A DNA stretch of 64,000 nt from Streptomyces sp. 11x1 (GTDB taxonomy: Bacteria > Actinomycetota > Actinomycetes > Streptomycetales > Streptomycetaceae), in contig NZ_CP122458.1 of assembly GCF_032598905.1 (NCBI RefSeq), positions 6,659,001-6,723,000 on the forward strand, given 5' to 3'. The notes beneath the pieces are model-generated. The model worked only from the letters and a program-made list of their open reading frames with translations, ran no database searches and was not told the origin of the DNA. A program made the position numbers and the translations under genes. How positions within the stretch are numbered: the first letter of the stretch is position 1; each line of letters opens with the position of its first letter. Shown in pieces: positions 1 to 4,828 of the stretch.

Positions 1-1043
1 ACCACCACGTCCGCGACCCCCAGCTCGGCCAGCGCGGAGCGCACGGCGGCCGCCTGGTCACGGTGGGCCGTGCCGACGGCGATCCGGTCGGCGGTCAGCG
101 GCACGGGCTCCTCGGACCGCTCCGAGGTCGCCGCCCCACCCCGGTCGAGGAGCCGCCGTACGACCAGCGCGACGGCCCGTACCACCTCGGGGTCGGTCCG
201 TGGGGTGTGCCGGGCCGGCAGCTCCAGCAGCCCCCACCCCGACTCGGCGGCCTCGTCGATGACCCGGTCCGGGCCGGAGCCGTCCGCCGGCACCGCGAAC
301 CCGAGCCGCCGGTCCCCGTGGTCCGTGCCGCTGCGGAACGGCGTGAAGGGGTAGAACGCGTCGGAGACCAGGGGTGCCGCCGACGCCGGGAGCCGCCAGG
401 ACACCGGCAGCCGGTGCTGCGGCAGGTCGGGGTTGTGGGCCAGCAGCGTCGTCACAGCCGAGGCCGACGGGTCGTACGACAGCCCCGCCCACTGCTCGCT
501 GCCCACGATCGCGAACGGGTCCAACTGCCCCGGGTCGCCCACGAACAGCGCCCGCTCGAAGAGCCCGGCCACCGCCAGCAGCGCGTCCGACCGCATCTGG
601 TACGCCTCGTCGACGATCGCGTGCCGCCAGGGCTCGACGCCCTTGACGTGCGCCCACTTCGCGGCCGTGGAGATCACCACGTCCAGCCCGGCCAGCTCGG
701 CGGCCTTCGTCGACTTCCGTACGTTCGGCAGGGTGTCCAGCGCCTTGTCGTACGGGTCGCTGTCGCTGCTGTGCAGTCGGCCGACCGGGAGTTCCGGGTC
801 CTTCTCGGCGAGCCGGAGCACCAGGTCGTCGACCTGCGCGTTCGTCTGCGCGATGACCATCAGGGGGCGCCCGGCCGCGGCGAGTTCGAGCGCGGCGCGG
901 ACGACGAGCGTCGACTTCCCGGCACCGGGCGGCGAGTCGACGACGACCCCACGCGCGTCGCCGTGCAGCGTGTCGCGCAGGATCGCGTCGGTCGCGCGGC
1001 CGGCCGCCGCCCCGGGATCGAGCACGGCCTCGGTGGGGGTCAC
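1..1043 (-). CDS. SF1-type AAA ATPase/helicase, C-terminus outside the window
   Basis: The visible 347 codons begin with GTG, which overlaps the stop of the preceding gene as GTGA. A P-loop PPGAGKST lies near residue 40 and a Walker B-like segment IVDEAYQM near residue 160. They are followed by GDPGQLDPF and, further on, VSWRLP and GTAHRDQAAAV, the order seen in superfamily 1 helicases of the Upf1/Dna2-like type (AAA_19/AAA_12 folds). It should be an ATP-driven nucleic-acid translocase. It is the last visible member of a tightly overlapped run with a RecB-like nuclease gene and an unknown gene, so the products probably work together on DNA. The 3' end is cut by the window edge. Exact substrate and any defence or repair role are unknown. 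Confidence 0.8.
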   Translation of the reverse strand, partial: MTPTEAVLDPGAAAGRATDAILRDTLHGDARGVVVDSPPGAGKSTLVVRAALELAAAGRPLMVIAQTNAQVDDLVLRLAEKDPELPVGRLHSSDSDPYDKALDTLPNVRKSTKAAELAGLDVVISTAAKWAHVKGVEPWRHAIVDEAYQMRSDALLAVAGLFERALFVGDPGQLDPFAIVGSEQWAGLSYDPSASAVTTLLAHNPDLPQHRLPVSWRLPASAAPLVSDAFYPFTPFRSGTDHGDRRLGFAVPADGSGPDRVIDEAAESGWGLLELPARHTPRTDPEVVRAVALVVRRLLDRGGAATSERSEEPVPLTADRIAVGTAHRDQAAAVRSALAELGVADVV

Positions 1044-2662
1044 AGGATGTCCTCCTCGGTCACCGGGTCCGGCAGCGGTACGGCGTCCGGTTCACCCGGC
1101 GGCCCGCCGTGCGTCCACGGTGTCTCCTCCGGGTCCGGCAGCTTCGCCCCGCCCCGCTGGTCGTGTTCGAAGAGGGTGAAGCAGAGCCGGTCCCCCTTCT
1201 CGGGGACGGACCCCACCTCCGGCTCCTTGCCCCGGCCCATCTTGTCCATGATCCGCAGCACCAGCAGGGTCTCGCCCGCGTCGGCCGCCCCGTCGGGCCC
1301 GCCCGGCTCGTGCCCGACGAACTCCGCCGTCTGTGGCTTCCCGCCCAGCGAGCGGTACACCTTCGCCCGCTCCCCGAGATGCGGCCGGTCGCGTGTCCGT
1401 AGGGTCACCAGCGGCCGCGGGCTCGGGCGCTTGCCCTCGCTGTACGCCATCGCGACGTCCACGACCTCGCCGGCGAACGCCTCCCCGGCCAGCCGTCGCC
1501 CGGCCATCACGAGGGGGTCGTCCAGGGCCTCCTGGGCGTCGAGGCGGGCCTGTTCGCGCTCGCGCGCGGCCAGCTTGTTCGCGGCGGTGACCGCGTCGTC
1601 GACGCGCGGCTGCGGGGGCTCCCCTGCGACGATCCGGTCGCGGTGGCCGGTGAAGGACCAGCGGTCGCGGGTCCACCGGTCGGCCGCGTGGGCGCCCTCC
1701 GGCAGGGCGCGCAGCAGATCCAGGCCGTGCCAGACCGCGTCCCAGGTGGGCCGGGTGCGGCTCTCGACCAGGGCGCGGATCTCCCGCTCGGCGGCGGTCA
1801 GCGCCCCCAGCCGGTCGTCGGCCTCCAGGCCGTCCTCGGCGGCGGCCAGCGCGAGCCGCGCCCGGTCGTACCGCTCGATGGCCGGGGCCAGCAGCTTGTT
1901 GTCGAACGCCGGGTCGGTCGCGGGCCCGGCGGGCGGGCACAGCAACTGGCCCTCGGCGTCCCGCGCCAGCTCGGCCCGCCGCGCCGCAGCCTCGCCCGAC
2001 TCCCCTTCCGGCGGGTCGATCCAGGCGAGCAGCGAGGCCAGGTGCTGGTCCTCCACCCCGGACTGGCCGGTGGCCCAGTGCCGAGACAACAGATCGGTGA
2101 GCGCGAGCAGCAGCGAGGAGCCCGGCACCCGCGCCCGCTCCCCGAAGTGTGTGAGCCATCGCCCGAGCAACGGCACGCGCGGAGGCGCCGGATGGGGTGC
2201 CTCCGGGTCCTGCTCCGCGGTGCGCCTGAACCGCATGGAACGCCCGAGGAGCCGTACGAAGTCGATGCCCGTCCGGCTCGGCAGGATCAACTGCGGGGCG
2301 TCCGCGCACAGTTCGACCTCGACCTTGACGCGTTTGCCGGTCTCCGGGTCGGTCTCGTTGCGCTCGGCGGCCTCCACCGCGTCGGCGTAGCCGTCCACGT
2401 ACGGCAGGACGATGTCCGCCAGTTCGGCGAGGAACGCGAAGCGCAGGTCACGGTCGCGGGGCTGGGGCACCACCAGCAGCCGGGGCGCGTCCCGGTCGGT
2501 GCCGACGAGTGCGCCGAGCGGGGCCCCGGCCTCACCGGCGGTGGTCAGCGGCACGAGGACGAGGGGGCGGGCGGAGAGATGCCGGTGCAGAACGGTGGCG
2601 GCGGGCTGGGCGCGGCCCGAGCTGACGGCTTCGAGACGGGCGAGGGTGGCGATCAGCGACAC
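1040..2662 (-). CDS. conserved protein of unknown function, middle gene of nuclease/helicase set
   Basis: A 540-aa soluble protein with no motif I can assign. The middle (residues about 230-420) is rich in Ala, Arg and Glu and probably helical or coiled-coil. The C-terminal 110 residues look beta-rich, with segments such as AKVYRSLGGK and DRLCFTLFEH, and end in an acidic tail EEDIL. The gene overlaps the upstream nuclease gene by 10 nt and ends in a GTGA overlap with the helicase gene, so the three are almost certainly translated as a unit. By position it could supply an accessory domain that Upf1/Dna2-like helicases normally carry at their own N-terminus; that is inference. I do not recognise the family. 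Confidence 0.75.
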   Translation of the reverse strand: MSLIATLARLEAVSSGRAQPAATVLHRHLSARPLVLVPLTTAGEAGAPLGALVGTDRDAPRLLVVPQPRDRDLRFAFLAELADIVLPYVDGYADAVEAAERNETDPETGKRVKVEVELCADAPQLILPSRTGIDFVRLLGRSMRFRRTAEQDPEAPHPAPPRVPLLGRWLTHFGERARVPGSSLLLALTDLLSRHWATGQSGVEDQHLASLLAWIDPPEGESGEAAARRAELARDAEGQLLCPPAGPATDPAFDNKLLAPAIERYDRARLALAAAEDGLEADDRLGALTAAEREIRALVESRTRPTWDAVWHGLDLLRALPEGAHAADRWTRDRWSFTGHRDRIVAGEPPQPRVDDAVTAANKLAAREREQARLDAQEALDDPLVMAGRRLAGEAFAGEVVDVAMAYSEGKRPSPRPLVTLRTRDRPHLGERAKVYRSLGGKPQTAEFVGHEPGGPDGAADAGETLLVLRIMDKMGRGKEPEVGSVPEKGDRLCFTLFEHDQRGGAKLPDPEETPWTHGGPPGEPDAVPLPDPVTEEDIL

Positions 2663-3888
2663 GGAACCCCCTCGGGCGCCGAGCCGGGCAGCGCGGCGGC
2701 GGACCCGCGCGCGGCCGCGGCCCCCAGCGCCTCCGCCCGCAGCTCCGCCGCTCTGCGCAGCGCGGCCACGGCCGGGTCGTCCGGGTCGCCGGCGAGGCCG
2801 TGGGCCGCCGCCAGGACGTCGTCGACGGTGGTGAGACCGCCCAGCTCCGCGCGCGCGGCCCGGCCCAGGGACGTCACCGCACCCTCGGAACGGGAACGGG
2901 TCCGGCAGTGGAAGGCCAGCTCACAGGCGGCGAGGCACTCGGGCGCGTAGGTCGCGGACAGTGCCTCGACGGCCGTGGTCAGCTGCTCCCGGGGCAGGTC
3001 GGGGGCGAAACAGGTGCCCTCGGGGAGGTCGTCCGCGATCTCCTCGATCCGGGTCAGCCGGGTCAACTGGCGGCGGGTGACCGCGCGTTGCTTGCGGATG
3101 TCCACCGCCGCGGCCGTGGGGAGGTTGGTGAAGTCCTTGGGACAGACCAGCAGGACCCGGTGGCGCACCTCGGGCGCGGGGGCGTCGCCGCGCGCCTCGC
3201 CGCCGAGCCGGGCGGCGACCTCCTCCAGCGCCAGCACGTACACCGCGGACTGACGGGCGGCGGCGCCCACCTTCGCCGGGTCCGCCGAACCGTCCAGCAT
3301 CGGGAAGGACTTGATCTCGACGACCGACCAGGTGCCGTCCGGGTGGACCACCACCGCGTCCGGTTCCAGGAACGCGGGGGAGCCCGCGACGTCGAGCGCG
3401 AGCATGGGGTGGTCCAGCAGCGTCCAGCCGCCGGCGTCCGTGGCGTCGCGCAACGCCAGTGCCGTACGGGCGGCGCGGCCCTCGGGGCCGACGGCGGCGA
3501 GGTCGGGGACCGAGGCCGAGACCGGCGGCTCGGCACCGGGGTCCAGCCTCTCGTGCACCAGCCGCAGCAGTTCGGCGCCGCCGTCGGCCTTGACCCGGGC
3601 CTCGAAGGCGTTGCCCCGCATGAAGGCGAACTGGGACTGGCCGAAGGCGGAGGGCGAGCCGAGCGCGTCCGCCAGCACCGCTTTGTTCACCCCCGCGCCG
3701 TCCAGCAGCGCGCGGCGCTCACAGCCCGGGTTGGCCGCGAGCGCGGCGAGGGCGCGCGCGTCCAGCGACTTCGGGGGGACCTCGGGTCCGCGCAGCTCAG
3801 CGAGCCGCTGCCGGAGCGCCGTCCTCTGTCTGCGAGGGGGCGGCACCCGGCTCGGGGTCGGTGATCCGCTGCCGTGGAATTCGCTCAC
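2653..3888 (-). CDS. RecB-family (PD-(D/E)XK) nuclease-like protein with a cysteine cluster
   Basis: The sequence shows a RecB-like core in order: RGNAFEARV (motif I Glu), LEPDAVVVHPDG (motif II Asp), SVVEIKSFP (the E-x-K) and RQSAVYVLAL (Q-x3-Y). After the core comes PECLAACELAFHC, a C-x3-C-x5-C arrangement; with an upstream Cys (NPGCERR) this resembles the iron-sulfur clasp of AddB/Cas4-type nucleases, although those usually have C-x2-C. The start is uncertain: GTG at 3888 is chosen, while GTG at 3909 or TTG at 3918 would also be in frame and GTG at 3846 is the latest option. None has a clear ribosome site. The N-terminal part lies inside the 3' end of the PAP2 gene in another frame. It is followed by the 540-aa and helicase genes. 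Confidence 0.75.
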   Translation of the reverse strand: MSEFHGSGSPTPSRVPPPRRQRTALRQRLAELRGPEVPPKSLDARALAALAANPGCERRALLDGAGVNKAVLADALGSPSAFGQSQFAFMRGNAFEARVKADGGAELLRLVHERLDPGAEPPVSASVPDLAAVGPEGRAARTALALRDATDAGGWTLLDHPMLALDVAGSPAFLEPDAVVVHPDGTWSVVEIKSFPMLDGSADPAKVGAAARQSAVYVLALEEVAARLGGEARGDAPAPEVRHRVLLVCPKDFTNLPTAAAVDIRKQRAVTRRQLTRLTRIEEIADDLPEGTCFAPDLPREQLTTAVEALSATYAPECLAACELAFHCRTRSRSEGAVTSLGRAARAELGGLTTVDDVLAAAHGLAGDPDDPAVAALRRAAELRAEALGAAAARGSAAALPGSAPEGVPCR

Positions 3889-4828
3889 CCGGGGAAGTCT
3901 GGCACTCACCACTGACAATCGGGGAAACCGAGGCCCGTGAGACGGCGGTGGCCTTAACCGCGGGCTCCGCCACGGGCCGTGGGCCGCCGCCGTCGAACCG
4001 GCTCGCGGCCGCGGCGGAGAGGCCGAGCGAGTCCCGCCACTGGTCCGCGAGCCGAAGCACCAGCGGGGTCACCAGCAGGCCCGCCCCCATCACGGCGGCT
4101 CCCGCCACCGCGTCGAGGAAGTAGTGGTTCGCGGTGCCCATCACGACGATCGTGGTGATCAGCGGATACGCGACAGCCGCGGTCCGCACGAGCCGGGAGT
4201 TTCCCGCGAAGCGCCACAGGATCACCCCGCACCACAGGGCCCAGCCGACGTGCAGGCTCGGCATGGCCGCGTACTGGTTCGTCATACCGCCCAGGCCCCG
4301 GGGCGCGCTGGCCTCGCCGCCCCACCAGCCCCACGAGCTGTAGTACGCCATGGTGTCGACGAAGCCGTGGGCCGGGTTCAGCAGCCGGGGCGGGCAGGTG
4401 GGCAGCAGGGTGAAGCCGATGAGACCGATGAAGGTGGAGGTCAGCAGCCAGGTGCGGGCCGCGCGGTAGCGCACGGCGTGGGACCGGAAGAGCCACACCA
4501 GGAGCGCGGGGGTGACCAGGTAGTGCAGCGAGGCGTACCAGAAGTCGGCGGGTATCCCGATCCAGGGCTCGCGGGTGAACAGCCGGTTCAGCGGATGCTC
4601 GGCGTTGAGCCGGAACGTCTTCTCGATCCGCAGGATCGCCAGACCGTGGTCGACGGCGTGGGAGGTGTCGCCGCGGGCGAGCAGCCGGCCGGCCGAGTAC
4701 GCCCCGTACACCAGCAGGATCAGCGGTAGCTCGGTCCACCAGCGGAGCCGCGTGCCCGGCGTCGCCTCGGTAACCGGTGCACCGGTCCTTCTGGTAACCG
4801 GTGCCTCGGTCGCCTCGGTCTGCGGCAT
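3797..4828 (-). CDS. PAP2-like integral membrane protein (inositol phosphotransferase/phosphatase fold)
   Basis: A 343-aa membrane protein with several hydrophobic spans from residue about 25 to 260. It carries the PAP2 signature pair: [11 protein letters not shown] near residue 190 and [11 protein letters not shown] near residue 235. The family includes membrane phospholipid phosphatases and, in actinobacteria, Aur1/Ipt1-like enzymes that transfer phosphoinositol-type head groups; the substrate cannot be read from sequence. The start ATG has a strong upstream GGGGGAGG. The last 80 residues are a hydrophilic, low-complexity tail whose final codons overlap the nuclease gene. The N-terminus contains a short in-frame duplication around ATEAPVTRR and GAPVTEAT. 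Confidence 0.85.

Follow-up and report, generated by a model that had tools for sequence, protein, structure and literature searches.

Three overlapping Streptomyces genes that may encode a Dna2-like helicase-nuclease divided over three chains

A window of 64,000 nucleotides from the chromosome of Streptomyces sp. 11x1 (NZ_CP122458.1, positions 6,659,001 to 6,723,000) was analyzed for a set of three tightly packed genes at its left edge. The genes, named B, C and D, lie on the minus strand and encode a nuclease, a middle protein and a helicase, respectively. All three display high GC content at the third codon position, and the two overlaps described in the original prediction, 10 nt between B and C and GTGA between C and D, were both found. 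That prediction had placed the set at 1..3888. The set is real, and the longest open reading frame (ORF) of B reaches 3918 from a TTG start, with an N-terminus that is recognizable in two other Streptomyces rows (L108, L114; here and below L, G, P, f and g are our handles for loci, genomes, proteins, families and genera). D begins at 1043 and extends 300 nt beyond the left window edge, and its complete ORF (L009:8700-10043) encodes 447 aa. The coordinates are collected in Table 1.

Table 1. Features of the B-C-D set in the window
Feature	Position	Strand	Basis
Gene B, 421-aa PD-(D/E)XK (RecB/Cas4-like) nuclease with predicted 4-Cys Fe-S site	2653..3918	-	
Gene C, 540-aa middle protein	1040..2662	-	ORF; model pLDDT 89.4, pTM 0.87
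Gene D, SF1B helicase core, 347/447 aa in window	1..1043	-	AAA_11, SMUBP-2, DNA2 matches
B stop / C start overlap, 10 nt	2653..2662	-	
C stop / D start overlap, GTGA	1040..1043	-	
B catalytic stretch E185-P-D187, E201-I-K203, Q223, Y227	3238..3366	-	motif count
First Fe-S cysteine codon, C66 of B	3721..3723	-	invariant 111/111
C-x3-C-x5-C of B (C328, C332, C338)	2905..2937	-	invariant 111/111
D motif I (Walker A, DSPPGAGKST)	909..938	-	K43 invariant 115/115
D motif II (VDEAYQM region)	597..617	-	D145, E146 invariant 115/115
C residues 31-345, domain akin to the 3'-5' exonuclease of family B DNA polymerases (RNase H fold), probably inactive	1628..2572	-	model
C residues 357-499, long helix (possible stalk) and beta-barrel like domain 1B of Upf1-like helicases	1166..1594	-	model

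The RecB-like nuclease with a C-x3-C-x5-C cluster that had been read from the sequence of B is borne out by the structure model and fold comparison, which assign B to the Cas4/EXO5/AddB/AdnA/Dna2 fold class. The cluster at residues 328-338, invariant in all 111 proteins compared, is joined by a fourth invariant cysteine, C66, in a predicted iron-sulfur (Fe-S) site, and three of the 111 proteins have the spacing C-x2-C-x5-C. One 942-aa B protein (L159) was excluded before this count, and loci with B matching less than 75% of a query (60% in one scan) contributed no row. Positions 187, 201, 203 and 223 are all intact in 103 of the proteins, and active-site residues are thus kept in most orthologues. 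Residues 1-28, looked at for an N-terminal oligonucleotide/oligosaccharide-binding (OB) domain of the Dna2 type, are without predicted structure and are followed by helices. For folding, near-identical rows were thinned and 45 of 74 B rows were used. At E<=1, window B and C matched no family in Pfam, NCBIfam or PADLOC. Their sequence search against the PDB gave no convincing match either; matches of E 4e-7 to designed repeat proteins were summed from weak matches to one helix pair.

D was originally described as a superfamily 1 (SF1) Upf1/Dna2-like ATPase. Its matches to AAA_11 in Pfam (1e-11) and, among solved structures, to SMUBP-2 (3e-8) and DNA2 (2e-6) confirm this and point to subclass SF1B. 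Eleven helicase-motif positions are invariant in 115/115 proteins, and S44 is S or T. No relatives of window D were found in a scan of viral_contigs. Only about 35 residues precede motif I in D. In Dna2, by comparison, the nuclease is linked to the helicase, of about 450 residues, through a stalk and a beta-barrel (PMC4716839). D therefore resembles a helicase minus its barrel.

The fold model of C joins a domain like the exonuclease of family B polymerases (PolB) to a long helix and a 1B barrel of the Sen1/SETX kind, with moderate fold matches. The original prediction regarded C as an adaptor of 540 aa from no recognized family. The absence of a known family stands, and the adaptor role is probably wrong on this model, in which C probably supplies the barrel that D is without, plus an exonuclease-like domain. 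That domain is probably catalytically inactive. The folding input was composed of 44 of 80 C rows, after near-identical rows were thinned, and 14 of 120 listed P proteins. RNase_H_2 is absent from the Pfam matches of 59 C members, and in a BFVD fold search nothing matched C at E<=0.001. The idea that C is a membrane or cytochrome-assembly protein was rejected, as only weak chance Pfam matches were obtained (Caa3_CtaG in 23/59 members, best E 0.005). A total of 3566 database relatives of C were found at E<=0.001, and the named close ones are nearly all from Streptomyces. Two C homologues (P0155, L122) come from metagenome-assembled genomes labelled Candidatus Thiodiazotropha and Rhodobacteraceae, which may reflect a spread beyond Actinomycetota or misbinning.

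Gene C is present in 10/246 genomes sampled across the phylum, 70/394 across the class and 115/121 of Streptomyces. The B and D profiles (D at E<=1e-60) hit the same 70/394 genomes as C, the lists having been compared by eye, handle by handle, and because of this identical occurrence the trio is not a chance association. Seven Streptomyces genomes were without C in the two surveys, and five of them were searched for D: G654 and G724 gave no match, G459 (8e-6) and G731 (1e-4) gave weak matches only, and G714, a fragmented draft, holds a helicase fragment at a contig end. All three genes occur in two copies in five Streptomyces genomes (G182, G348, G424, G468, G573). We further inspected 80 loci, the best out of at least 534 and not a census. 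They come from Streptomyces, Streptosporangiaceae, Micromonosporaceae, Nocardia, Frankiaceae and others and are called the named loci below. B, whole or partial, was found in 79 of them and D in 79, always in the order B-C-D and on one strand; the exceptions are L166, without a nearby D, and L190, cut before B. The co-conservation of the genes, on which the original prediction depended, is thereby supported. C and D are separated by 1-2.5 kb in four named loci (L124, L126, L149, L153), and in two genomes of family f6 an intact D is located 36-49 kb from B-C. D ranges from 425 to 471 aa in 79 named loci, so none of these has a fusion to D. B and C, on the other hand, are fused in two metagenomic proteins, P0172 with 719 aa and P0173 with 715 aa. 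The B profile matches about the first 260 residues (E 6e-44 and 6e-45, respectively), followed by the C profile (2e-114 and 5e-115), and no shuffled control gave an E below 0.5. The ExK pair looks degenerate by eye in both fusions.

On the co-occurrence, gene order, motifs, single-chain fold models, fusions and gene neighbours obtained by computation, we consider it likely that B, C and D belong together as the subunits of a single Dna2-like helicase-nuclease, with the domains in Dna2 order over three genes. The shared DNA-processing role put forward in the original prediction gains from the strict co-occurrence, the B-C fusions, the conserved motifs and the linkage of accessory copies to SbcCD described below.

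No family in the searched libraries fits the whole trio, and no description of it was found among titles and abstract openings of the open-licence PubMed Central (PMC) literature, subscription journals and preprints being outside this scope. Passages of PMC10482375 and PMC12839542 contain none, and the closest description is that of Bad, a DNA2-like enzyme of Geobacillus (PMC7430649). A known defence system was rejected, as B and C matched no family of PADLOC-DB (2023) at E<=1 and D gave only weak helicase-core matches; A (see below), B and C of the plasmid locus L011 likewise matched no PADLOC family at E<=0.01.

The nearest protein family is TM0106 (TIGR03491), in which a nuclease region, an RNase H-type domain and an SF1B helicase follow in an order like that modelled for the trio. 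In L202, a single-chain TM0106 protein of 1128 aa, a TIGR03491 match and RNase_H_2 (2.9e-16) come before AAA_11/AAA_12. Its helicase is homologous to D in hhalign profile comparison (probability 99.5, E 3.7e-22), whereas C gave no alignment and the match of B was weak and confined to the region around the cysteines (P 0.043). The two differ in that TM0106 is one chain and the trio three genes, whose C has no detectable sequence similarity to TM0106 and is probably inactive. Moreover, the trio is mostly absent where TM0106 is present. TM0106 lies above cut-off in 134/394 genomes, in 3/70 with the trio (G050, G474, G533) versus 131/324 of the others (Fisher p 1.7e-10, uncorrected for phylogeny); in four further trio genomes it lies below cut-off. 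Within family f77, the trio genera (g209, g239, g255, g262, g269, g272, g281, g296) and the TM0106 genera (g198, g230, g235, g247, g252, g259, g267, g282) are disjoint. The genome of the window has no TIGR03491/TM0106 match, nor does the in-window part of D match TIGR03491. Genome G235, of genus g4, encodes a second TM0106-like protein (L204:60-3512), perhaps an inactive paralogue, whose nuclease, RNase H and Walker B motifs look degraded by eye.

Bad combines an Fe-S RecB-type nuclease with an SF1B 5'-3' helicase, and its central domain is conserved but of a structure that the authors of the study could not assign (PMC7430649). It is a single chain and was compared by description only; that its middle domain is common with TM0106 or C is a guess. 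A second class of DNA2-like proteins is mentioned in Mycobacteria and Rhodococcus (PMC7430649), and we would guess that the TM0106 proteins are this class. Eukaryotic Dna2 has an Fe-S PD-(D/E)XK nuclease, stalk and beta-barrel, and SF1B lobes (PMC4716839), in the order that the trio probably follows; the trio is split over three chains, probably has an extra exonuclease-like domain and shows no OB domain. Among the design parallels drawn in the original prediction, Dna2 was apt, and an AddAB/RecBCD-like identity was rejected on helicase class and layout. In AddAB, AdnAB and RecBCD the nuclease is fused C-terminally to an SF1A motor chain, whereas B is free-standing and D matches SF1B proteins, with a putative barrel in a separate chain. 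AddAB and AdnAB share with B the nuclease fold and, in AddB, the Fe-S site (PMC7430649).

Some copies carry an additional gene, A (249-291 aa), ahead of B. This conserved gene precedes B in those accessory copies that were examined, as well as in many loci of Streptosporangiaceae, Micromonosporaceae and Nocardia (L010, L011, L012, L082-L096, L100-L104, L106, L111, L112 and 18 named loci). Among the 80 named loci it is whole in 18, none from Streptomyces, and in pieces in L149. A search of the window's genome found no gene A; G348, G182, G291 and G466 have one each, and G023, G328, G421 and G580 none. Gene A matches no Pfam family at a convincing score and no PADLOC family; by impression from its sequence, the product might be a winged-helix protein.

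All 14 second Streptomyces copies that were fetched have gene A; the other G666 copy and G628, with its sole copy in two pieces, are outside this count. SbcD adjoins ten of them (L082, L085-L089, L092-L095), and SbcC was matched in nine; L095 has part of SbcD only and no SbcC within the fetched stretch. A-B-C-D likewise has SbcCD as a neighbour on two plasmids of Streptomyces (L011, L012) and in four genomes of other genera, namely a Frankia genome (L104), G474 (L103), Streptacidiphilus (L183) and Kibdelosporangium (L162), in the last of which SbcCD lies downstream on the same strand. In L012 (2-2185), SbcC and SbcD match in fragments, and the A-B-C-D and Wadjet genes are nearly full length. 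On the tree, the SbcCD linkage needs four changes, at least three of them forced by well-supported branches, as given by a quick method with some long branches. Downstream of the copies in L011, L012, L086 and L093 there are Wadjet I genes, and L183 has Wadjet III genes nearby. Of the four SbcCD-type copies on single-contig chromosomes, those of G573, G706 and G666 are no more than 25 kb away from an end, unlike that of G721.

The remaining four of the 14 second copies (L083, L084, L090, L091) adjoin genes of the pPIWI-RE type. They stand beside PprPDDEXK and PprDinG genes, and PprPIWI was confirmed in three of the four loci, with no such gene within the fetched stretch of L090. Scans covered both PprDinG and PprPDDEXK in L083 and L090 but PprDinG alone in L091; the PprDinG and PprPDDEXK genes of L084 and the PDDEXK gene of L091 were read from ORFs of equal length and start. 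In this lineage the nuclease motif is lost (E201L and K203R in 4/4), while the cysteines and helicase motifs are retained. The pPIWI-RE genes are divergent from the nuclease-dead A-B-C-D module (with L239-L241), and the defence genes that come next vary: HmaA in L083, a BPTD_3080 endonuclease in L084, and an SNF2-like gene with a type III methyltransferase in L091.

Downstream of D, most Streptomyces core loci have a 120-aa gene (P0004; L009:8155-8517, left of the window), and in many cases a GGDEF/EAL-type protein, identified by eye, is encoded further on; a Pfam scan of P0004 returned no family. SOS regulation of the trio was rejected, with boxes at up to 2 mismatches in 23/112 upstream regions versus 173/590 random slices.

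As to complex formation, direction of movement, threading, substrate and biological role, we infer the following from these comparisons. B would be the Fe-S nuclease, C the exonuclease-like domain, stalk and 1B beta-barrel, and D helicase lobes 1A-2A, with C completing the helicase and carrying B. Once assembled, the enzyme would engage single-stranded DNA at a free 5' end and move 5' to 3' with ATP, passing the strand through the Fe-S-stapled nuclease, by which DNA ends and flaps might be trimmed or resected. In most actinomycetes having the trio, it may process DNA ends as a housekeeping enzyme that takes the place of TM0106. Accessory copies would have gained gene A and paired with SbcCD, which could open blocked ends before B-C-D resects, and the pPIWI-RE-adjacent lineage probably serves as a helicase only. 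The best reading is a housekeeping module in most genomes that was recruited into defence neighbourhoods. The pairing of SbcCD with a split Dna2-like module in accessory copies recalls Mre11-Rad50 and Dna2 in resection by analogy only, and differs in that no SbcCD match lies beside the Streptomyces core copies examined. A bolder version, to be taken as tentative at best, holds that the trio is a trisected Dna2 with a split helicase, C being domain 1B plus a decayed exonuclease. With A and SbcCD it would be a bacterial Mre11-Rad50/Dna2 counterpart on plasmids and near linear ends, destroying linear DNA made by Wadjet, and its nuclease-dead version would be a helicase partner of pPIWI-RE.

The module might instead be primarily anti-plasmid or anti-phage, with the core copy domesticated and the accessory copies degrading DNA linearised by Wadjet or unwound for pPIWI-RE. 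We regard this as rather unlikely. The accessory copies beside the Wadjet I, Wadjet III and pPIWI-RE genes listed above, their location on plasmids and near chromosome ends, and the type III-like methyltransferase gene next to the Geobacillus Bad gene (PMC7430649) are consistent with it. However, core-copy gene C is nearly universal in Streptomyces, the core copies group in a single Streptomyces clade, as mobile defence genes typically do not, and the core loci examined have no SbcCD or Wadjet query match in the fetched flanks (pPIWI-RE genes not queried). Wadjet is, moreover, enriched at Streptomyces chromosome ends generally (PMC10482375), so that its proximity may be coincidental; this weakens the Wadjet link. 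Direct SbcCD adjacency is the stronger link. Action on RNA or R-loops, by a helicase of the Upf1/Senataxin kind that carries a degenerate RNase H-fold domain, is improbable: Sen1 and SETX have the barrels most similar to that of C, and the nuclease-dead lineage neighbours pPIWI-RE with the DinG helicase, a proposed R-loop actor (PMC3702460), but B belongs by fold to a class of DNA nucleases with its four positions mostly kept, and the SbcCD linkage indicates DNA ends. That B, C and D are separate co-transcribed enzymes of one pathway, not one machine, is the least credible view, since the distant D of the two f6 genomes makes adjacency dispensable, yet the B-C fusions, the identical presence across 394 genomes and a D without the stalk and barrel that Dna2 and Ighmbp2 have (PMC4716839) argue against it.

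If B, C and D are indeed one split enzyme, bacteria would possess Dna2 in a split form, and Streptomyces a second helicase-nuclease, nearly universal and unnamed, alongside the AdnAB of the genus. Thousands of database proteins now called hypothetical, the relatives of C, would gain a testable function, and an exonuclease-like reading is tentatively suggested for the central domain of Bad. The neighbourhoods further suggest that one DNA-processing core may have been reused beside SbcCD, Wadjet and pPIWI-RE.
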